Below, piece by piece: positions 1 to 11,075 of a DNA stretch of 39,835 bases (its first letter is position 1; every line of letters starts with the position of its first letter). The stretch is from Minisyncoccota bacterium. GTDB taxonomy: Bacteria > Patescibacteriota > Minisyncoccia > Minisyncoccales > Minisyncoccaceae. The position numbers were made by a program, and so were the translations under genes. Below the pieces are notes generated by a model, which had not been told where the DNA came from, searched no databases, and was given only the letters and a program-made list of their open reading frames with translations. The stretch spans positions 1 through 39,835 of the forward strand of contig JAQWEU010000003.1 of assembly GCA_028704755.1 (NCBI GenBank), given 5' to 3'.

Positions 1-23
1 GTTATTGTTTCTTCTTTGGTCAT
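1..23 (-). CDS. Possible 5' end of a transposase gene (partial)
   Basis: On the minus strand an ATG at 23-21 opens a frame reading MTKEETI before the window ends. Its position, directly inside the presumed IS end and pointing away from it, fits a transposase start. Seven codons cannot show homology, so this rests on context alone. The start codon overlaps the base of an inverted repeat (22-57), which would hinder translation initiation. Confidence 0.3.
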
Positions 24-57
24 ATATCAATCAATTATTGTTATTTGATTGATATAT
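22..57. repeat. Inverted repeat (13-bp arms) over the minus-strand start codon
   Basis: Arms 22-34 and 45-57 are perfectly complementary, with a 10-nt loop at 35-44. In minus-strand RNA this hairpin would end inside the AUG of the presumed transposase. Structures that hide the start site are a known way for IS elements to limit transposase synthesis. The stem is very AT-rich, so its strength is modest. Confidence 0.6.
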
Positions 58-74
58 ACCTTAAAGTGTCTTAC

Positions 75-118
75 TAGGACATTTTCATTTTGCTCTAAGT
101 AGGACATTATCACGTTGC
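75..118. repeat. Two direct 19-bp boxes, 25-bp period
   Basis: Box 1 (75-93) and box 2 (100-118) share TAGGACATT, then CA, then TTGC at identical spacing. Fifteen of nineteen positions match. Their place inside the presumed IS end suggests transposase-binding sites. Confidence 0.6.
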
Positions 119-144
119 CACTACATACAGACCAATACAAACAC

Positions 145-174
145 TTGACAACTTTTAGGTATCGGGAGTATAAT
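145..174 (+). promoter_or_regulatory. Consensus sigma-70-type promoter
   Basis: TTGACA (145-150) and TATAAT (169-174) are perfect consensus boxes, 18 bp apart. Transcription would start near 181. The promoter lies about 20 bp outside the IS end and reads into the region with a strong terminator at 271-297. Confidence 0.8.
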
Positions 175-180
175 ATTATT

Positions 181-297
181 GTAACGATCGTTAATCAATT
201 TCCCGCTTTCCTTAAAGCGGTACCGCTCTTTTAAATATCAATATATTTTGCACTTTTCTTTTTAATAAATAGAGATACTTAAGTATCTCTCTTTTTT
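181..297 (+). ncRNA. Candidate small RNA or attenuated leader
   Basis: The stretch between the promoter at 145-174 and the terminator at 271-297 has no ATG and no ORF on the + strand. It holds a short palindrome (183-192) and two mutually exclusive hairpins: 203-220 (7-bp arms, CCTT loop) and the 12-bp palindrome AGCGGTACCGCT at 216-227. The RNA would be about 115 nt long. It could be a free small RNA, or a leader whose terminator controls read-through into the gene at 368. No known RNA family is recognised. Confidence 0.45.
271..297 (+). terminator. Intrinsic terminator
   Basis: A perfect 20-bp palindrome (271-290, arms AGAGATACTT and its complement) is followed by C and a run of seven T. 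It lies downstream of the promoter at 145-174 and upstream of a second promoter at 309-337. Confidence 0.8.
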
Positions 298-367: not shown

Positions 368-832
368 ATGCAGCATATTTGGTCAGTACTATGTCAAAAA
401 TCCTCTATTGATTTCGAAACAAATTTAGTAAGTTTATTCGAATGTATTGAGGAAGTCAATTTGGTATTCAATAATACTAAGGATGCTAATAGTGAAAAAA
501 TCGTTATTCCTGTAAATTGGCAATTGGTCAATTACTGGGTTGTTGATAGTGGTGAGGAGGAAGGTGATTTAGAGATGAAGATTGAATTCGTAAATCCAGA
601 TGGAGTGATTTTCAATAGTTATGAGAATAAGATTAGCTTGCAAAAGAATATAAAGAGGTTTAGGAGTAGGACGAATATAAATGGTTTCGAAGTTTCGAAG
701 AGCGGAAGGTATAAAGTTTTTGTTAATTATAAGAAGGGGGGAGAGTATGTAAAAATTTCTGAGCTTCCTGTCGATATAAATATAAGTTTCAATATTCCTC
801 CAGAAGGGAATATCGGATTGAATAATAATTAA
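368..832 (+). CDS. Small beta-rich protein of unknown function (DUF6941-like fold?)
   Basis: The 154-residue protein has no signal peptide or membrane segment and alternates hydrophobic and polar residues, as in a beta sandwich. The start reads MQHIWSVLC and an SLF motif follows near residue 22. A G-Y-Y/K-V strand near residues 112-118 is typical of Ig-like folds. The pattern reminds me of DUF6941-type proteins, but I cannot confirm it. It lies 11 bp upstream of the TIGR04141/DUF6119-type gene and shares its promoter, so the two products probably act together in the cytoplasm. No catalytic motif is visible. Confidence 0.8.
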   Translation: MQHIWSVLCQKSSIDFETNLVSLFECIEEVNLVFNNTKDANSEKIVIPVNWQLVNYWVVDSGEEEGDLEMKIEFVNPDGVIFNSYENKISLQKNIKRFRSRTNINGFEVSKSGRYKVFVNYKKGGEYVKISELPVDINISFNIPPEGNIGLNNN

Positions 833-843
833 GAGAAGATAAA

Positions 844-2433
844 ATGGCAGATCCTAGAATCAATAGAGTATCAGTATATCTGATAAAAAAGCATGTATTC
901 CTAGAAGAGGTTTTGAAGAAGAAATTACAAGTCCATAAAATCGAGATACCCAATAGTGGTATCTTGTTTGTTGGAGAAGCAAGAATCAATCCACCGAAAT
1001 GGATCAGGAGTTTTTTTCCTGATGCAGAAATTGATTATGAAAAATTGAAGATATTCAATTCATATCCGAGTGCTGTTTTCTTGACGAAGATCGATACTGG
1101 AAACAATGAAGAGAGGGTGTTCGCTATTACTTTCGGCGGTGGGTGGCAAATGATAGAAGGGGAGGCTATCGAGGATAATTTTGGATTAAGAACTACTTTG
1201 AATCTGATCAATCCAAAAGGATTGAAGAGCATTGATAAAAAGAATCTGAGCTTGGTCCAAAAAAGGAGTAGGGAGAATATAGGGAAAGAGGGAGTCGTTT
1301 CTGATTTCGGTGTCGATATTGACCAGGACCTGATACAGTCAGTTGTCGGACGTTCAAAGGATAGGTCTTTTGGAACTACTTTGAGCGGTAAGGATTCTTT
1401 GCATCTATCGATAGAAATCGATATGAACAATCTGAAAGAGAAATTGGCTGATTATTATAAGGCATATAATAGTGAAGAGTATAAGAATAATTTTTCGTGG
1501 ATTGATCAGGTGAAAGAGATTTCAAATAAATCCTTAATCATCAGATTGAATGAAAGAGTTGTATCGGCAATGAAGGAGAATGAAATAACAGAGAAGATGT
1601 GGCTGTCTATTCCAGATGTAATAAATTGGGAAGATGTGGCTGGTTTCAAGTATGGGAATAAGAAAGAAACGCTTTATCCTGATCTCTATCTAGCTGATTT
1701 CAAAGCAGTCTTTGCTGATGAGAATCTGGAGCTTGATCTCTTAAAGAGGACCAGTGTGAATTGCATGAGCGTTTCGAAAGAGAATACTATGTATTCCTGG
1801 AAGGTGTTCAAATGTCTTTATGCAGAAATCGAAGATAATGGTAATAGATATATATTGAATGGTGCAAGATGGTATCAGATCGATAAAGAATTCTATGATG
1901 CAGTTAGTGAGGATTATTCATCAGTTCCTCTTTCGGATATCAAGTTGCCTGATTGCCCAAAGGATAAGAACGAGTCCGAATATATAAAATGGGTAAGTGA
2001 TAATAATGATTATGCTTGTCTGGATGGGGCAAGGATAAATTATGATGGACATAGTTCGATAGAGTTCTGCGATCTTCTTTCTCCTAATAATGAGATAATA
2101 CATGTAAAGAGGTATGGAGGATCGTCTGTCCTGAATAACATGTTCGGGCAGGCGGTAATTTCGGGAAGGCTATTCTTAACCGATCCTGCCTTTAGAAAAA
2201 GGATTAATTCTAGGCTGGTTGAGAATTATAAGCTGAAAGATATCGAAAACAAGAAAATTGATTCATCAAAATATAAGATAGTGATAGGGGTAATCAGTTC
2301 TTCGGAAAAGGATCTGATCGAGATGCCATTTTTCAGCAAGGTTTCTTTGAGGAGTACAAGAAGGATGCTTGAAGCTTTTGGGTATGATGTTTCTTTCAAG
2401 AAAATATATTCTTTGGAAAAGGGTTTGGATTAG
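844..2433 (+). CDS. TIGR04141/DUF6119-type sporadically distributed protein
   Basis: The 529 residues match the usual length of the TIGR04141 (DUF6119) family. Conserved blocks are FGGGW (97-101) followed by an FGLR stretch, SFGTTLSGKD (175-184), HVKRYGGSS (420-428), and a C-terminal block around 496-520 with FFSKVSLRSTRR and GYDVS. The family's biochemical activity is unknown to me. It is scattered among bacteria and often found in variable or defence-rich regions, which fits its position beside an IS end here. No membrane segment or signal peptide is present, so the protein is cytoplasmic. It follows the small beta-rich protein by 11 bp in one unit. The family call comes from recalled motif spacing, not from a search. 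A defence role is inference. Confidence 0.75.
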   Translation: MADPRINRVSVYLIKKHVFLEEVLKKKLQVHKIEIPNSGILFVGEARINPPKWIRSFFPDAEIDYEKLKIFNSYPSAVFLTKIDTGNNEERVFAITFGGGWQMIEGEAIEDNFGLRTTLNLINPKGLKSIDKKNLSLVQKRSRENIGKEGVVSDFGVDIDQDLIQSVVGRSKDRSFGTTLSGKDSLHLSIEIDMNNLKEKLADYYKAYNSEEYKNNFSWIDQVKEISNKSLIIRLNERVVSAMKENEITEKMWLSIPDVINWEDVAGFKYGNKKETLYPDLYLADFKAVFADENLELDLLKRTSVNCMSVSKENTMYSWKVFKCLYAEIEDNGNRYILNGARWYQIDKEFYDAVSEDYSSVPLSDIKLPDCPKDKNESEYIKWVSDNNDYACLDGARINYDGHSSIEFCDLLSPNNEIIHVKRYGGSSVLNNMFGQAVISGRLFLTDPAFRKRINSRLVENYKLKDIENKKIDSSKYKIVIGVISSSEKDLIEMPFFSKVSLRSTRRMLEAFGYDVSFKKIYSLEKGLD

Positions 2434-2503: not shown

Positions 2504-3346
2504 ATGCTAAATCAAGAATTAGTAAATTACATTGAAAAATCTCTAAACTCAGGAGCTAAAAAAGAAGATATTAAAAAGAAGCTCTTTGAGGTGGGATGGA
2601 AGGATTGGGACATTGATGTTGCCTTTTCTTTTGTTGAAGTAAATGTGAAAGAAGATCTAGGTGGAAATTCTCCTAAGCCAGTAATTGAAGAGATAAAGAC
2701 TATTGATGATTTGGTCTGTGACATGCTCAGGCAAGGGAAGTCGAGGGATAATATTTTCGAGGAGCTGTTGAATGCATATGATTATGGAGAGATTAAACGT
2801 GCTTTTGATAGGTATGTCGCTGAAGAAGAAAAAAAAATGAGTCCGACAGCTTCTTTTGGATTCATAGTAGTCGCGCTTGCTTTTGTCTCTTTCATTTCAA
2901 TCGCTTGGGATAAACTGATGGGGGATTTCCGAATGTATGCAATCCTAATCTTTTGCTTGTTCTATTTCCTTTCTGGATTATATATCAAGTATAGGGAAAA
3001 GATCATCTTAGGAGGGGAGATAATATGTTTTTTTTCCGTCGTTGCTTCTGGGTTCTCTGTCTATCTCTTATCAAATAGTTTCTTAGTGAACCTATCTTGG
3101 GTGCAGGATGTCATATTATGGATGTTCATAATCCTGTTCATGGGGGTGCTTGCTGATAGTCTCTTGATCCTGAAGTTCGCTTTGCTAGTCGGATTGGTTC
3201 CGGCAATTGCTTACCCTTTCATGATGATCAGGAGTGGAGAGTCTTTTGTGACCCAAGGTTTTACATGGTCTAATGTATACATGATAATGTTCTTCGTTAC
3301 GTTGTTCTTGGTCGCTATCATAATAAATAAGAGGTCGCATAATTAA
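2504..3346 (+). CDS. Membrane protein with duplicated N-terminal helical motif, DUF2157-like
   Basis: The 280-residue protein has two parts. Residues 1-45 form a small helical module (MLNQELVNYIEKSL, then GW and IDVAF) of a type often seen at the N terminus of CPR membrane proteins. A second, diverged copy seems to sit at residues 66-103 (DDLVCDMLRQGKS to EIKRAFDRY). From about residue 112 to the end there are roughly seven hydrophobic segments, in a pattern like DUF2157 predicted membrane proteins. The two copies of the module probably face the cytoplasm. No enzymatic motif is seen. It is followed after 14 bp by another small membrane protein gene, so the two are likely co-transcribed. Confidence 0.75.
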   Translation: MLNQELVNYIEKSLNSGAKKEDIKKKLFEVGWKDWDIDVAFSFVEVNVKEDLGGNSPKPVIEEIKTIDDLVCDMLRQGKSRDNIFEELLNAYDYGEIKRAFDRYVAEEEKKMSPTASFGFIVVALAFVSFISIAWDKLMGDFRMYAILIFCLFYFLSGLYIKYREKIILGGEIICFFSVVASGFSVYLLSNSFLVNLSWVQDVILWMFIILFMGVLADSLLILKFALLVGLVPAIAYPFMMIRSGESFVTQGFTWSNVYMIMFFVTLFLVAIIINKRSHN

Positions 3347-3803: not shown

Positions 3804-6800
3804 ATGGAGGATAAATTTGAGAAAAGCGAGGTAGGTAGTGATGAGGCAAAGACAACTAATCCAGTTGATCAGAATACTGGACCGGTCTTAAATAAGGATG
3901 TCTTGCGAGAATATATCGGCATACAAGAAAAAGAAAAATCTTCTAATTTCAAAGATAGGTTGGATTTTTATTTAGAGCAATTCAAAGAGAATATTGCAAA
4001 TAATGTAACGATACAGGAATTGAAGTATTTCTGGACTCCAATAAGGATGGGGGTGGTAGCAGGAGCTGTCTTATTAGTTTTTGTGGTATTCTATCTTTTT
4101 GCTTTAGTCGACGTGAATAATAGTAAACTTGTTTCCCAGTACAGATTAGTTCCGGAAAAGATTTCTAAATCAGCAGCCATACGGATCTCGATACCAGATG
4201 ATATAGATGTAGAAAAGGCAAAAAATTCTGTAGTCTTCAATCCTAGGATCGATGGATCATGGGTTGATAAAAAATATTCTATCTTCGATTATGTCTTTGC
4301 TGGTGATGGAAAGAAGATGTTATTCTTCAAGCCGAATAATCAATTAGTGGAGGATAGGTATTATCAAGCATCACTGGACATGGGAGACGGGAAAAAAATA
4401 AAGGCTGATTTCTTGGCAGTCGACGATCCAAAGGTAGAGGCTGTCTTTCCTGGTAATACTGAGGAGGCAATGGAAGATTCAAAGATAATTATCGCTTTCA
4501 ATAGGCCAATGATCTCTTTTGATAGTGAAAGCGTCCAAGACGTTCAGAATCCTCCTATTGAAATAATTCCTGAAACAAGAGGAAAATTCAGGTGGATCAG
4601 TCCGAACGTCCTTCAGTTCCAGCCAGAGGAGAATCTAATCTCTTCGATGAATTATAATGTCAAGGTCAAGGAAGGATTCGTTTCTTTGGATGATATAAAG
4701 GTACCTGGAGGAGATTTTTCTTTTAAAACAAGAACATTGAAATATCTGGGTGATAATAAGAATGATCGGGCAATAGTTTACAATCAGCCTATTAGGATAT
4801 ATTTCAACCAGCAGGTAGATATTAAAAAAATCGCTTCAGAGATAAGTATTTATGGCAATGGACATAAAATTCCTTTCTATATCGGATATGCGGATAAGAG
4901 CGGGAGCGCGGAGGTAAAAAATGATTCTCAACCTGATATTATCAGCAGTATCGTAGATACTGTTTCTTCCAGTATTAATAACATGGGGAATGGGGTTGAT
5001 TATTTTGTTTCAGGAGATTATTTTGTCGATACTAATGAAAGCAATAAGGATCTTAATGTCATTGAGATATATAATAAGAACGATAAGAATAATAATGATA
5101 GGATATGGGACTTAGATGTCAATTATTCGATGATTGTGAATAAGGTTTATCCAGTAAAAGGTGATATTGCCTTAGAAGAAAAAAGAGAAATTAATTTTTC
5201 TATACTGAGTATAATAAAAGATATCAATGCTTATTCCCAGAGAACGACATATTCTTCCTTAGATTCATTTGATCCTCAGGGTTATGTCTCGATCGATTTT
5301 TATGAAGATGTTGATCTCAATAAGAGTAGGATAGAGTCTTCTTCGGGTATAGAGAAGACTGAGTATGGTGAGAAGTGTCTGGATGATAATATGAGTAATA
5401 GCAGTTGCCTGAAGACAGTCAATAAGAAGGAGCTGCGTATTCATTTTAATGAAAAGCAATTAGCGGACAAGACTAAGACAAATCTTGTCATAAAAGAGGT
5501 TGTCGGGGAGAGCGGTAGGAAGATCAATTCTTCCGATATCTCTTATGAGATAAAGACTTATAGGCCACTTGATATTAAAATAGGAAAAGATAAAAATAAG
5601 AGTAATTTTTCTGCATTGATCTTATGTTCAAATAATCCTTTGGAGGTTCCGAATAAAGAAGATTTTAAGAAAGTCATCAATGCTGATGGTGATTATGAAA
5701 TATTTTCATGGGGGGTGTCTTGGCAGAATAATTACTATGATGATAATTATTGTCCAAAAGGAGATTTTGTCACGACTGTTGATGTCGGATTCATACCTGA
5801 GAAAAATTATTCTCTAGGATTTCTATTGAATGATGTCTTCGGTCAGAGTGTTGAACAGAGTTTAGGGATTGTTACCGATAAGGCGACTAATGAGGATATT
5901 TCGATCTTTTCAATGCAAAAAGATTATAATATAACTTCTTCTAAGAAGACGAGTGTCTCATTTGGGGTGAAAAATATTGATTATGCTGATATCGAGATAT
6001 GTAAGAAGTATGACGCTGCTAGTTTTTATGATTCATATATCAAAAGAGATTCTTTAATGTCAAATTGCGAGAATTCGAAAAAGGATAAAGTGCAGTTGCC
6101 TCTGAAGAGATGGGTCAACAATTATTTCGATATAGATATCAAGAAATATTTTGATGAGCCATTGGGTAATTATGTGGTAAAGATATCGCATCCTAATTTC
6201 AAGAATAAGGATGGAGGGAATGAGATATATTCTTTCATCACTATTACCAACATCGCTGTCTCTGAGAAGAGGGTTGACCTAACTGATTCTAAAGCTGAGG
6301 AGAACGGTGATATCTTTGGCGAAGTCAAGAATATCTATTGGATAACTAATGTCGAGACCCAGGAACCGATCGAGGGGGCAAAAGTCAAGATATATGCTTC
6401 AGGAAAAATAATCGAAGGACTTTCTAATAAAGAAGGATTAGCATTCATCACTCCTGTTTCTAATTTTGATGAGATAGTCGTCGAATATGGAAGAGATAGT
6501 ACTGTGATATCGAAGGATGATTATCTGAGTGATCCCACAAAGGCCTATGCGGTCAAGAAGGCATATATCTATACTGATAAGCCTGTCTATAAGATGGAGG
6601 AAACGGTGAATATAAGGGGTTTATTCAGATTAGGGTATGATGGTATTTATAAGATACCTACGAATGAGGTGCAGCTAGAAATATCTAATCCAAAAGGAGA
6701 AAAAATATCAAATGCTACTATTGCTTTGGGCGAGTTCGGAACTTTTACTAGTTATTTCAAGGTAGAAAAAGATGCTCCATTGGGAGATTATTCTATTTGC

Positions 6801-9800
6801 GCAACTGATTATGGTTGTAGTCATTTCAACGTCCAGGAGAATATTCCTTCTGCTTTTGAGGTCAATGTTATTCCTACTAAGGACGAGTTCGTCTCAAAGG
6901 AAGTGATAAAGTTGAATTTAAGCGCTAATTATCAATTCGGGGTTCCAGTCGAGAATGCTGAAGTGGAGTATACGATAAGTGCACAAGATTTTTATTTTGA
7001 TAGGGCTAAAGAGGTGGGCGTGAGTTTTGAGAGTGACGATGGTGAAGATGATGGCGAGATAATTTTTGCAAAAGGGAAAACTATCCTGGATATCTATGGG
7101 AAGGGAGAAGTTTCTGAGATAGTCGATATTGAAAAGGTATTTAAAAATTCTTCGAGAAGCAAGGTGTTATATTTTGATTTCAATGTCAAGAGCTCTTTCG
7201 GACAAAGAGTAAGTTATCGTAAGCAGATCATCCTCCATCAAGGTGACTTTTATCTAGGTGCTTCTGTCAATCCATATTTCTTGAAGGTCAATAAGAATCT
7301 AATATTCAAAATCATGACAGCTGATGGTTATGGTAAACCAAAAGCAGTGAAGGATATGGTTACAAATATTTATAGGGTAAGTTGGGAACATGAAAAGAAT
7401 AAGAATCCTGATGGTACTTATAGTTATTCTTGGAAGAAGAAAAGAGATTTTGTAAAAAGTGGAAAAATTTCGACAGATAGGAATGGAACATTTTCAAGAT
7501 CAGGAGATTCCATCGCTGTCGAGGGAGAATATGAGATTGATTTTTCTGGTTCTGATACTTATGGTAATAAGATATCTTTAACGAAGTTATTCTATGTGTT
7601 CGGGGAGAAGCAAGTCGAAGTGAGATCAAATGATGGTTTGAACTTGGATTTGGAAGTAATAAATCCAAATATCAATCTGTCGGAAAAAGGTCATTTGATA
7701 ATCAAGTCACCTTATCCAAAGGCAAAGGCTTTGGTAACAGTTGAAAGGGGTAGAGTATTCGAGCATAAGGTGATTGACATAGTCGGCGGCTTATATGATT
7801 TCGAGTTTACGCCTAAGGGAGAATATTTTCCGAATGTATATGTTTCTGTGTTATTACAGGGGCCTGATTCGGCAATAAGGTTCGGGTCAAAAGAATTCTT
7901 CATAAAGAGCGGTTTAAGTAATCTTAATATCTCGGTCACGACAAATAAAGCTAATTATCTTCCTGGAGAGGAGGTGTTAGTCAAGATCAGGACGCTTGAT
8001 GGTAATCGTTCACCGACTCCTTCTGAGGTCTCATTGTCGGTTTTTAGTAACGATCTTCTAAAGAGTGAAGTCAATATCAATAAGGACCCTTTTAGCTATT
8101 TCTATACTGAATTCCCACTAACTGTTTCTGCTTATTCGAATATGAAAAATGTTATTGGTGGTGATATGATCAAGATGAAAGGCAATAGTTCTTCAGGTGA
8201 TGAGGTCTTAGCAAAAAAGTTCAGGGACGTCATATATTGGAATGGGGAGATCCAGACGAATACTGATGGTTATAAGGAAATCACCCTTAAGCTGCCTCAG
8301 GCTTTGGGTAATTGGAGAATAGAAGCCATTGGCGTCAATAAGGGATCTAATGTCGGTATTGGTTATGCAGATTTTGTCTCTCGAAAGGAGTTGATGATCA
8401 CCCCCTTGAGGCCTTCTTTCATAATTCCTGGAGATAAGTTCTATGTAGGGGCTGAGATCGTTAATCAGACTGATACGAAAAAGACTGTCAATGCTTCTTT
8501 TGCTAGCGATACCTTGAATTTCTTGGGTGGAAATAAGGAGACGTTGTTAAATATTGAACCAGGTGATTCTCAAACTGTTTATTTCTTCGTAGAAGCTCCA
8601 TTCATATACCTAAGAGGACAGCATTCTTTTATCGTTAATACCGATATACAGGACAGTGATACTTTAGTACCTTGTACTGCCGAGAAGGATGAATCCTCTG
8701 TAAGAGGTAAGTGTGGATCTGTTAATGGGCAGAAGCTATCAAGTAAGCCAGAAAATGATTTGTGCAAGGTGGGTACTCCTTCCCAGGTTTCTGGTGAGGG
8801 GCCTTGGAGTTGGACCTGTGAAGGTTTTAATGGAGGAAAGGCAACGACATGCAAGTCTTTGAAAGTTGAGTCTTCTTTTGATGGCAGGTGTGGAAAAGTA
8901 AGCGGAAAGAAAACTGCTTTTGCTCCTGATCAGGACCTTTGTTCTGTGGGGAAGGCGTCTGAGGTCTTAGGTTTTGGTCTGTGGACATGGACTTGTGAAG
9001 GTTTTGGTGGTGGTAAGTCCGCATCTTGTAGCGCTCCGCGGGATGAATCTGTCATTGATGGAGAATGCGGTCGGGCTGATAAGAAGTTTTCTCCAGATAC
9101 TCCAGTTGATTATCTTTGTGATTATGGAAAACCTTCTCCAGTCTCAATTTTCTGGACTTGGACTTGCGAAGGAGCTAATGGGGGAATCAGTGCTGATTGT
9201 TCAGCAAAGAAGTCTGATGATTCGAAGAACAAATGTGGTTCGGCTGATAAGAAGAAATTCTTCTCATCTCCTACTGAGAATCTTTGTTTAGTGGGGACTC
9301 CTTCTAAGGTTACTGGTGAAGGGCCATGGGCATGGACTTGTGGAGATACTCATAGTTCTGTTGAGGAAAAAATAGATGTCCGAGAGAACAATACATATGA
9401 CTATGTCTATATCGGAGGAGGGACCAATGAGAATGAAGTAGATGAGGTCATTTATGTTCCTGATGGTATTTCTACTGATAAGGGAGAGTTATCAATAAGA
9501 ACTTCTCCGAATATTTCAGTGTTTTTATCTGATTCTTTAAATTATCTTGTTAATTATCCATATATTTCATCTGAACAGTTAGCAAGTAAATTGAAATCAA
9601 TGATCCTTTCTGGGCAGGGACTAGGAATAACGAGTATTTTCGAAAAGTTCAAATTGGAAAGCAGTAACCGTGATCCTAAATATGGATTGAATGAGGAGAT
9701 AGAGCAAAGCTTGAAGAAACTTTATAACAATCAGAACTATGATGGTGGGTTCAGCCTGTGGGGAGCAAAAAGTTCTGATTATAATAAAAGTGTTGCTATC

Positions 9801-11075
9801 TTAGATTCCTTAATAGTCTTGAATAATGCCGATAAGATCAAGGATGATGATAAGAAATTCTTGAGCTTGATCGATTATGTCTATAATAATTCCTTCAATG
9901 GAGATACCTCACAGATAAGTGCGGACAGATCGATCTCTTCGGCATATGTATTATTATCTTCAGGAAAGTACAAGAATGATAAGAAGATCAAGGATTCGCT
10001 TGAGAAGATATTGAAGGATGATGTGTTGCTCAAGGAGAAAATAAGTAATCAGACATTAGCCAAACTTGCTATCATAGCCAATGGAGGAGGTTTTTCTTGG
10101 GGCATGGATGATAAGGTCAATAAGCTATTAGAGTCAAGATTGGTTTCCGATTCGAAGGGGGTCTTCATCGAACCTAAGAAGGATAATACCTTATATGATA
10201 ATTATGAGACCTCAATAAATGATACTGCTTTGTATCTTAAGTCGTTGGCTGTGGGAAAGAAGGATAAGGGTAATAATGAGAAGATCATCCAGTGGCTCGT
10301 AAATTCTAAATCTAGGGATGGGTCTTGGGGGTCAACAAAAGATACGGCTGAAGTCATCGATGCTTTTGTGAGTTATCTGAATTGGAAAAGGTTTAACGAT
10401 TCTAATTATGAACTTTCAGTGATCTTCAATGGAGAGAAAGTCGATTCTTTGAATTTCGGGGCTGGTTCGACAATGGACCAGACGAGTAAGAGGATCGAAA
10501 TATCGAAAATGAAGCATAAGGATTATAATGTGATAAGCTTTGACAAGTCTAAGCATAGGCCGTTATTCAAGGATAATCTTTATTACGATATCTTATTCAA
10601 GCAATATATTTCTGCAGAAGCTAAGCCAGAGGATTCAGGACTTTCTATAACAAGAGGATTCTACTCCTTGAATGATTCAAAGAATGATAATCCAATGACT
10701 TCCATATCGATGGGTAATATCCTGAAAGTCCATTTACAGATAGTCGTTCCAAAGGAAAGCAGATCGATAATTGTCGAAGATCATATCCCAGCTGGAATGG
10801 AGGTAGTCGATATTGACCTTGCCACAGAAAAGAATTATTCGAAGAATATAGAGAAGGGGGTGAGGAATGATTATTTCTATCCTGATCATGGTGAGATAAA
10901 GAGTGACAGAGTATTCCTTTACAAGGATAATGTTTCTCCTGGCGTCTATTATTTTGATTATTATGTAATTGCTAAGACAAAAGGAGTATATTCATATCTG
11001 TCTTCAATCGTTTCTGAGGCGTATAATCCTCGAGTGTTCGGAAGGACTGGTGGAAGTCATTTCGAAATAAAATAG
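3804..11075 (+). CDS. Giant alpha-2-macroglobulin-like surface protein with a degenerate thioester motif
   Basis: This 2423-residue protein has a short cytoplasmic N terminus and one membrane anchor (about 83-103), with no lipobox, so the bulk lies outside the membrane. Ig-like domains (about 207-420) follow. A macroglobulin MG2-like domain starts at AYIYTDKPVYK (920). A variable stretch (about 1437-1475) sits where the bait region would be. An A2M core starts near residue 1478 (YWNGEI), then four Cys-rich repeats (1635-1848), an alpha/alpha-toroid thioester-type domain (about 1900-2250) and a C-terminal beta domain. Bacterial macroglobulins trap proteases cut in the bait; in thioester forms a Cys in a YPYGCxEQ-type motif links to the target. 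Here that motif is YPYISSEQ (1918-1925), with Ser1922 in place of Cys, so no thioester can form. The protein may trap sterically or act as an adhesin. Protease inhibitors encoded just downstream support the protease-control reading. Confidence 0.85.
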   Translation: MEDKFEKSEVGSDEAKTTNPVDQNTGPVLNKDVLREYIGIQEKEKSSNFKDRLDFYLEQFKENIANNVTIQELKYFWTPIRMGVVAGAVLLVFVVFYLFALVDVNNSKLVSQYRLVPEKISKSAAIRISIPDDIDVEKAKNSVVFNPRIDGSWVDKKYSIFDYVFAGDGKKMLFFKPNNQLVEDRYYQASLDMGDGKKIKADFLAVDDPKVEAVFPGNTEEAMEDSKIIIAFNRPMISFDSESVQDVQNPPIEIIPETRGKFRWISPNVLQFQPEENLISSMNYNVKVKEGFVSLDDIKVPGGDFSFKTRTLKYLGDNKNDRAIVYNQPIRIYFNQQVDIKKIASEISIYGNGHKIPFYIGYADKSGSAEVKNDSQPDIISSIVDTVSSSINNMGNGVDYFVSGDYFVDTNESNKDLNVIEIYNKNDKNNNDRIWDLDVNYSMIVNKVYPVKGDIALEEKREINFSILSIIKDINAYSQRTTYSSLDSFDPQGYVSIDFYEDVDLNKSRIESSSGIEKTEYGEKCLDDNMSNSSCLKTVNKKELRIHFNEKQLADKTKTNLVIKEVVGESGRKINSSDISYEIKTYRPLDIKIGKDKNKSNFSALILCSNNPLEVPNKEDFKKVINADGDYEIFSWGVSWQNNYYDDNYCPKGDFVTTVDVGFIPEKNYSLGFLLNDVFGQSVEQSLGIVTDKATNEDISIFSMQKDYNITSSKKTSVSFGVKNIDYADIEICKKYDAASFYDSYIKRDSLMSNCENSKKDKVQLPLKRWVNNYFDIDIKKYFDEPLGNYVVKISHPNFKNKDGGNEIYSFITITNIAVSEKRVDLTDSKAEENGDIFGEVKNIYWITNVETQEPIEGAKVKIYASGKIIEGLSNKEGLAFITPVSNFDEIVVEYGRDSTVISKDDYLSDPTKAYAVKKAYIYTDKPVYKMEETVNIRGLFRLGYDGIYKIPTNEVQLEISNPKGEKISNATIALGEFGTFTSYFKVEKDAPLGDYSICATDYGCSHFNVQENIPSAFEVNVIPTKDEFVSKEVIKLNLSANYQFGVPVENAEVEYTISAQDFYFDRAKEVGVSFESDDGEDDGEIIFAKGKTILDIYGKGEVSEIVDIEKVFKNSSRSKVLYFDFNVKSSFGQRVSYRKQIILHQGDFYLGASVNPYFLKVNKNLIFKIMTADGYGKPKAVKDMVTNIYRVSWEHEKNKNPDGTYSYSWKKKRDFVKSGKISTDRNGTFSRSGDSIAVEGEYEIDFSGSDTYGNKISLTKLFYVFGEKQVEVRSNDGLNLDLEVINPNINLSEKGHLIIKSPYPKAKALVTVERGRVFEHKVIDIVGGLYDFEFTPKGEYFPNVYVSVLLQGPDSAIRFGSKEFFIKSGLSNLNISVTTNKANYLPGEEVLVKIRTLDGNRSPTPSEVSLSVFSNDLLKSEVNINKDPFSYFYTEFPLTVSAYSNMKNVIGGDMIKMKGNSSSGDEVLAKKFRDVIYWNGEIQTNTDGYKEITLKLPQALGNWRIEAIGVNKGSNVGIGYADFVSRKELMITPLRPSFIIPGDKFYVGAEIVNQTDTKKTVNASFASDTLNFLGGNKETLLNIEPGDSQTVYFFVEAPFIYLRGQHSFIVNTDIQDSDTLVPCTAEKDESSVRGKCGSVNGQKLSSKPENDLCKVGTPSQVSGEGPWSWTCEGFNGGKATTCKSLKVESSFDGRCGKVSGKKTAFAPDQDLCSVGKASEVLGFGLWTWTCEGFGGGKSASCSAPRDESVIDGECGRADKKFSPDTPVDYLCDYGKPSPVSIFWTWTCEGANGGISADCSAKKSDDSKNKCGSADKKKFFSSPTENLCLVGTPSKVTGEGPWAWTCGDTHSSVEEKIDVRENNTYDYVYIGGGTNENEVDEVIYVPDGISTDKGELSIRTSPNISVFLSDSLNYLVNYPYISSEQLASKLKSMILSGQGLGITSIFEKFKLESSNRDPKYGLNEEIEQSLKKLYNNQNYDGGFSLWGAKSSDYNKSVAILDSLIVLNNADKIKDDDKKFLSLIDYVYNNSFNGDTSQISADRSISSAYVLLSSGKYKNDKKIKDSLEKILKDDVLLKEKISNQTLAKLAIIANGGGFSWGMDDKVNKLLESRLVSDSKGVFIEPKKDNTLYDNYETSINDTALYLKSLAVGKKDKGNNEKIIQWLVNSKSRDGSWGSTKDTAEVIDAFVSYLNWKRFNDSNYELSVIFNGEKVDSLNFGAGSTMDQTSKRIEISKMKHKDYNVISFDKSKHRPLFKDNLYYDILFKQYISAEAKPEDSGLSITRGFYSLNDSKNDNPMTSISMGNILKVHLQIVVPKESRSIIVEDHIPAGMEVVDIDLATEKNYSKNIEKGVRNDYFYPDHGEIKSDRVFLYKDNVSPGVYYFDYYVIAKTKGVYSYLSSIVSEAYNPRVFGRTGGSHFEIK
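8706..9350 (+). repeat. Four tandem Cys-rich repeats of about 57-59 codons
   Basis: The units start near 8706, 8884, 9060 and 9231. Each reads roughly G-x-C-G, about 12 residues, P-x3-LC-x2-G-x2-S-x-V, W-x-WTCEG-x-NGG, x2-A-x-C. The last unit stops at WTCGDTHSS and lacks the NGG part. Four to six Cys per unit suggests disulphides or another rigid extracellular fold. Similar repeats occur in many bacterial surface proteins. Here they interrupt the segment between the A2M core and the thioester-type domain. Confidence 0.85.

Follow-up and report, generated by a model that had tools for sequence, protein, structure and literature searches.

A DUF6119 gene in a Patescibacteria contig: a predicted nuclease from a family linked to restriction-modification operons

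The larger of two adjacent genes near the edge of a Patescibacteria contig most likely represents a family of DNA-cutting enzymes tied to restriction systems, as suggested by the genomic neighbourhoods of its relatives and by the predicted shape of its product. The window, i.e., the whole 39,835-nucleotide stretch that was analysed, is an entire contig (C21) of a 1.12-Mb Patescibacteria genome that is 91.6% complete. We put at roughly 60% the probability that it holds an orphan copy of a defence nuclease linked to restriction-modification (RM) systems, one whose catalysis is predicted and for which we infer a part in defence, coupling to RM and activity as an orphan. The idea of a defence role, raised in an initial annotation of this DNA, is supported, and can be sharpened to that of a predicted, RM-linked nuclease.

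Two open reading frames, separated by 11 bp, are relevant here:

368..832, + strand: small DUF6941-like protein (154 aa), predicted to be all-beta; a dedicated partnership with DUF6119 is not supported
844..2433, + strand: DUF6119/TIGR04141 protein of 529 aa, predicted RM-linked nuclease

Both this layout with its 11-bp spacing and the TIGR04141/DUF6119 assignment had been proposed in the initial annotation, and both hold: the two reading frames are real and share a strand, and the product of 844-2433 is matched over its full length by Pfam as well as NCBIfam. Against DUF6119 (PF19614) it scores 451.6 bits (E 4.9e-135; cut-off of 27), with residues 9-521 aligned to profile positions 1-523 of 524, and against TIGR04141 it scores 433.3 bits from end to end (E 1.1e-129; cut-off of 35), such that family membership is given by whole-profile scores above the curated cut-offs. 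Gene structure and family were observed directly, as were the neighbourhoods and invariant residues described below, and the fold was predicted. The gene is intact and present in one copy in the source genome. As anticipated for a scattered family, DUF6119 exceeds the cut-off in only 7 of the 287 genomes examined from the phylum; plasmids from many genera and a single phage record carry it as well. Annotation pipelines still label the family ‘sporadically distributed’, without an assigned activity. The GC content of the two-gene stretch (368-2433; 0.357, vs. 0.379 for the window) gives no clear foreign signature. A literature search returned no paper on TIGR04141 or DUF6941, and mentions of DUF6119 only in unrelated work; a sequence search for relatives of the 844-2433 product among solved structures returned none at E <= 10. 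A PADLOC search with the same product gave no good match to a defence family (best E 0.018), and its assignment to a known defence family was dropped.

The link to restriction emerges from the loci in which relatives of the larger gene, drawn from GTDB genomes, the phylum, plasmids, phages and viral contigs, are situated. An RM gene directly adjoins DUF6119 in 11 of 30 non-redundant genomic loci, which were read by eye, and type I RM genes lie within 6 kb of it in 7 of 16 annotated plasmid or phage loci, these counts being descriptive because the plasmid rows were picked for taxonomic spread before their neighbour annotation was seen. Where DUF6119 genes are embedded among RM genes (i.e., flanked by hsdS/hsdR or by an HSDR_N-methyltransferase gene and hsdS), the gaps range from -17 to +57 bp. 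We call the family RM-linked in that, in independent lineages, its genes are located within RM operons or next to them, in the following arrangements and with the following other neighbours:

hsdS-DUF6119-hsdR: L055
hsdR-hsdM-hsdS-DUF6119: L060
HSDR_N-N6_Mtase fusion, DUF6119, HsdS, with gaps of 2-3 bp: L048, L061, L063, L065
HsdS-DUF6119: L051
DUF6119-hsdR: L050
methyltransferase-DUF6119: L047, L078
hsdS-DUF6119-hsdR, with reading frames overlapping by 1-8 bp: Mameliella, Mesorhizobium and Actibacterium plasmids
DUF6119 beside type I RM: annotated plasmids of S. meliloti, Rhizobium, Streptomyces and Vibrio
Other defence neighbours: SIR2 (L016, L058), HerA (L053, L058), AbiH (L019)
Other defence neighbours: NACHT (L125), IetAS-like (L015)

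The fusion layout was checked with Pfam on L061; the loci that share it (L048, L061, L063 and L065) are three-gene RM loci that lack an HsdR translocase and come from different phyla. In L078, the DUF6119 relative of another Patescibacterium (4323-5620) is disrupted by stops and frame changes, and the adjoining methyltransferase genes are intact. Genes for NB-ARC and TIR proteins are also among the neighbours, and some of the loci read (L124, L049, L056, L057 and L076) had no defence neighbour. Two DUF6119 genes occupy positions typical of accessory genes, one between integrases in a Pseudomonas phage (L017:9743-11452) and the other after an endolysin-like gene in a viral contig (L147:5995-7614).

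The initial annotation had proposed that enrichment near known defence genes be scored. A PADLOC search at E 1e-10 covered 129 genes near DUF6119, taken from 18 loci, and as controls 129 genes located elsewhere in these genomes, in unrelated stretches. The neighbours matched 341 families, among which type I methyltransferase and specificity subunits ranked first with 4 members each, ahead of type IIG enzymes with 3, whereas the control genes matched 24 families, all of them singletons and none RM; since PADLOC models overlap, these family counts are not independent, and the meaningful contrast is that in RM members. Together with relatives that adjoin RM, SIR2, HerA, AbiH and NACHT genes and that reside on plasmids and prophages, this pattern gives good support to the transferable, defence-type role suggested for the larger gene.

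What the protein might do is indicated by its predicted structure. An AlphaFold2 model built with 25 homologues has a pLDDT of 86.9 (91.4 for the C-terminal domain folded alone), and two of its parts can be delimited:

859..1485, + strand: N-terminal part, weakly RdgC-like (residues 6-214)
1909..2430, + strand: C-terminal domain, PD-(D/E)XK-like (residues 356-529), with E377, E407, D410, H420, K422 and Q436

A Foldseek search with the whole model gave weak, scattered matches, and the full model aligned to EndoMS/NucS with a Z of 6.6. For the C-terminal domain the best structural match is HamA of Hachiman (Z 6.7 over 144 aligned residues), followed by CdiA-CT nuclease toxins (Z 6.4), HamA of a second Hachiman structure (Z 6.0), and EcoT38I, Card1, PfoI, SduA, BglII and Can2 (Z 4.8-5.6); CD38 entries are interspersed among them, up to Z 5.8. 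Nucleases head this list, but because all Z values are below 8 and those of CD38 are nearly as high, the structural comparison cannot decide the matter by itself. The N-terminal residues align weakly with RdgC (2owl_B; Z 6.0, rmsd 4.7, 164 residues aligned), and matches of this part to phage RdgC have low probability. RdgC is not known to have a nuclease domain.

Conservation adds to the structural comparison. For comparison with the alpha-beta-beta-beta-alpha-beta core that typifies the PD-(D/E)XK superfamily, the predicted elements of the C-terminal domain are helices at 377-387 and 427-446 and strands at 397-400, 404-407, 417-423 and 478-485. All 44 DUF6119 sequences compared share E377, E407, D410 and K422, and Q436 is nearly invariant. 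The Asp on strand 2/3 and the Lys on strand 3 that characterise PD-(D/E)XK enzymes are present throughout, as D410 and K422, but the position two residues before the Lys, where an acid is usual, is H420 in 40 of the 44 and Q, N or C in the others. This pattern is consistent with an active site of a nuclease, located on strands 404-407 and 417-423; since the usual acid is missing, we regard the domain as PD-(D/E)XK nuclease-like and not as a proven member of that superfamily.

Compared with known systems, what is new for DUF6119 (PF19614)/TIGR04141, to which the match here is full-length, is the predicted nuclease domain together with the RM linkage. HamA, formerly DUF1837, is an effector nuclease with a D-E(X)K motif (PMC12278908), which shows that a formerly uncharacterised protein of such a fold can be a defence effector. 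HamA nevertheless differs in that it has no sequence match to DUF6119, pairs with the helicase HamB, and carries in its ExK an E where DUF6119 has an H. The PD-(D/E)XK nucleases SduA (of Shedu), EcoT38I, PfoI, BglII, Can2 and Card1 are weak structural matches without sequence similarity to DUF6119, and they have other partners.

On the reading that we favour, the weakly RdgC-like N-terminal region would engage DNA, and the PD-(D/E)XK-like C-terminal domain would catalyse its cleavage through an active site formed by E377, E407, D410 and K422. In most contexts the protein would work with an RM system: because translation of the gene appears to be joined to that of hsdS/hsdR or of a methyltransferase gene, the RM complex likely keeps the protein inactive or targets it, and the nuclease might then cut invading DNA, or host DNA once restriction is overcome. 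As for the copy in the window, a reading of the list of open reading frames showed no RM gene within the 37 kb that follow, and what precedes the two genes is lost at the contig end, for which reason we read this copy as an orphan. Contig C25 of the source genome (G000) carries a type I RM locus (L136; 59.5-66.9 kb), which consists of hsdM, hsdS, an SppA/ClpP-like gene and hsdR, lacks DUF6119, and, as read from the sequence, has an RloC/PrrC-like ATPase adjoining hsdR. The orphan may function by itself or, in trans, together with this C25 system. If this is true, the DUF6119 family gains a testable function as a predicted nuclease wired into RM operons across phyla, many RM loci would include a fourth subunit or a guard that has so far gone unnoticed, and orphan copies in small Patescibacteria genomes, plasmids and prophages could be read as defence genes.

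Several other readings account for parts of the same evidence. Within the three-gene systems that lack HsdR (i.e., HSDR_N-methyltransferase fusion, DUF6119 and HsdS), DUF6119 could be the missing catalytic subunit, and also a mobile RM-linked nuclease that many other defence systems have recruited, a proposal that we advance only tentatively. It is likewise possible, at a similarly modest level, that the protein is a guard comparable to PrrC, i.e., a latent effector of the RM operon, with either DNA or RNA as its target, that kills or arrests an infected cell when phage inhibitors disable RM. The gene prrC, which lies within the type I RM operon EcoprrI, encodes a latent nuclease that the RM complex keeps silent (PMC3874165; PMC2610378), and orphan copies of RloC lie beside mobile elements in genomes with type I RM elsewhere (PMC2610378). 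DUF6119 resembles both, sitting inside type I operons as prrC does, which suggests coupling to the RM complex, and occurring in the present genome as an orphan, beside a possible mobile element and with type I RM genes on another contig; its association with non-RM abortive systems also accords with a guard. However, PrrC is a tRNA anticodon nuclease of the ABC-ATPase type, and neither the ABC-ATPase nor the ACNase domain by which PrrC and RloC are recognised was found by Pfam and NCBIfam in the 844-2433 product, which returned DUF6119/TIGR04141 alone; moreover, the HSDR_N-methyltransferase/DUF6119/HsdS loci without a full HsdR suggest an integral role there.

The histidine in place of the active-site acid and the RdgC-like N-terminus (Z 6.0) could also denote a non-catalytic accessory, in which a degenerate nuclease-like domain modulates type I RM, for example through RdgC-like binding to DNA ends. 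We consider this unlikely, in that E377, E407, D410, K422 and Q436 hardly vary from one phylum to another, which one expects of a catalytic site and not of a decayed one. That the family is a housekeeping or metabolic protein whose proximity to RM genes is accidental is most improbable: although some DUF6119 loci have no defence genes, such a protein would sit poorly with the sporadic distribution (7/287 over the cut-off), the carriage on plasmids and prophages, the coupling with RM genes at the level of translation in phyla independent of one another, and the lack of RM matches among control genes.

The smaller gene (368-832) is a neighbour from a separate, widespread family associated with toxin-antitoxin genes and is not a dedicated partner of DUF6119. 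The initial annotation had suggested a profile search of its product, and this led to a DUF6941-like family: nine of 10 members of the small-protein family match DUF6941 (PF22091; best E 4.7e-8), but the window protein alone, at 18 bits, stays under the cut-off of 27. Members of this family were found in 10 relatives, with DUF6119 in 0/10 of these small-gene loci, and 14 of 15 genomes with matches to the small gene are without any DUF6119. Conversely, the small family occurs in one of the 44 DUF6119 loci searched (which include some genomic places fetched twice), and there it lies about 8 kb off, beside HicAB and not beside DUF6119; direct adjacency of the two genes was seen only in this window. 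Because the small gene and DUF6119 are not paired in the other loci searched, the two-gene ‘unit’ of 368-2433 is a local arrangement and no conserved module. A dedicated two-component module, whether toxin-antitoxin or sensor-effector, is compatible with the shared strand and 11-bp gap but is very unlikely in view of the co-occurrence counts, on which it was rejected. The dedicated partnership claimed in the initial annotation was thus not found outside of the window. That annotation had named two outcomes that together would speak against its reading, namely a lack of association between the genes elsewhere and a lack of enrichment near mobile or defence genes; for the pair this is borne out in part, by the first.

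Five members of the small family follow toxin-antitoxin genes:

L037:7426-7872: DUF6941-like gene
L038:7189-7617: DUF6941-like gene
L039:2742-3140: DUF6941-like gene
L046:7177-7611: DUF6941-like gene
L060:1979-2386: DUF6941-like gene

In L037, L038, L039 and L046 the gene comes directly after an HTH antitoxin gene, accompanied in L037 and L038 by a Gp49/HigB-like toxin gene, and in L060 it lies downstream of a HicA-HicB-like pair. The DUF6941-like proteins encoded after HigB/HigA-like or HicA/HicB-like genes are possibly a third component, as in toxin-antitoxin-chaperone (TAC) systems. A SecB-like TAC chaperone was considered for the small protein and set aside, as it has no SecB match and Pfam gives DUF6941; a PDB profile search returned only weak Ig-type matches (E 0.004, sodium channel beta-4).

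The region upstream of the two genes contains three short elements:

73..125, no strand assigned: repeated element of about 50 bp, possible transposon end, recurs in contig C41
145..174, + strand: perfect sigma-70-type promoter TTGACA-18-TATAAT, by consensus match only
271..297, + strand: terminator-like hairpin plus T run, between the promoter (97 bp before it) and the small gene

The first has three further copies in contig C41 of the source genome (81-96% identity), and two 25-bp direct repeats, 80% alike, lie at 69-93 and 94-118. The contig edge also holds eight codons of a leftward open reading frame, and both features are compatible with a transposon end at which the assembly broke off. 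The IS end proposed in the initial annotation is supported only in part: the element recurs in C41, but no transposase is readable at the edge, a search of plasmid records with window positions 1-200 gave no match, and none of 60 relatives' genomes holds the pattern of the ~50-bp element.

The promoter at 145-174 is the sole exact TTGACA-18-TATAAT of the window, and, followed by the strong terminator-like hairpin (to 297), it might yield an RNA of about 115 nt or act as an attenuator; the arrangement (145-297) is not conserved in relatives. A leader RNA between promoter and small gene was rejected, as Rfam gave no match near the gathering score and the DNA matches in relatives resemble AT-rich noise.

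Downstream of the two genes, 2504-3346 encodes a membrane protein of the DUF2157 family. Its first ~47 residues (MLNQELVNYIEKSL...GW..D.DIDVAF) also begin unrelated proteins in relatives, i.e., form a shared N-terminal module. Beyond it, a 2423-aa open reading frame (3804-11075) with Cys-rich repeats resembles, by eye, a giant alpha-2-macroglobulin-like (MG2) protein, here in a Patescibacterium.
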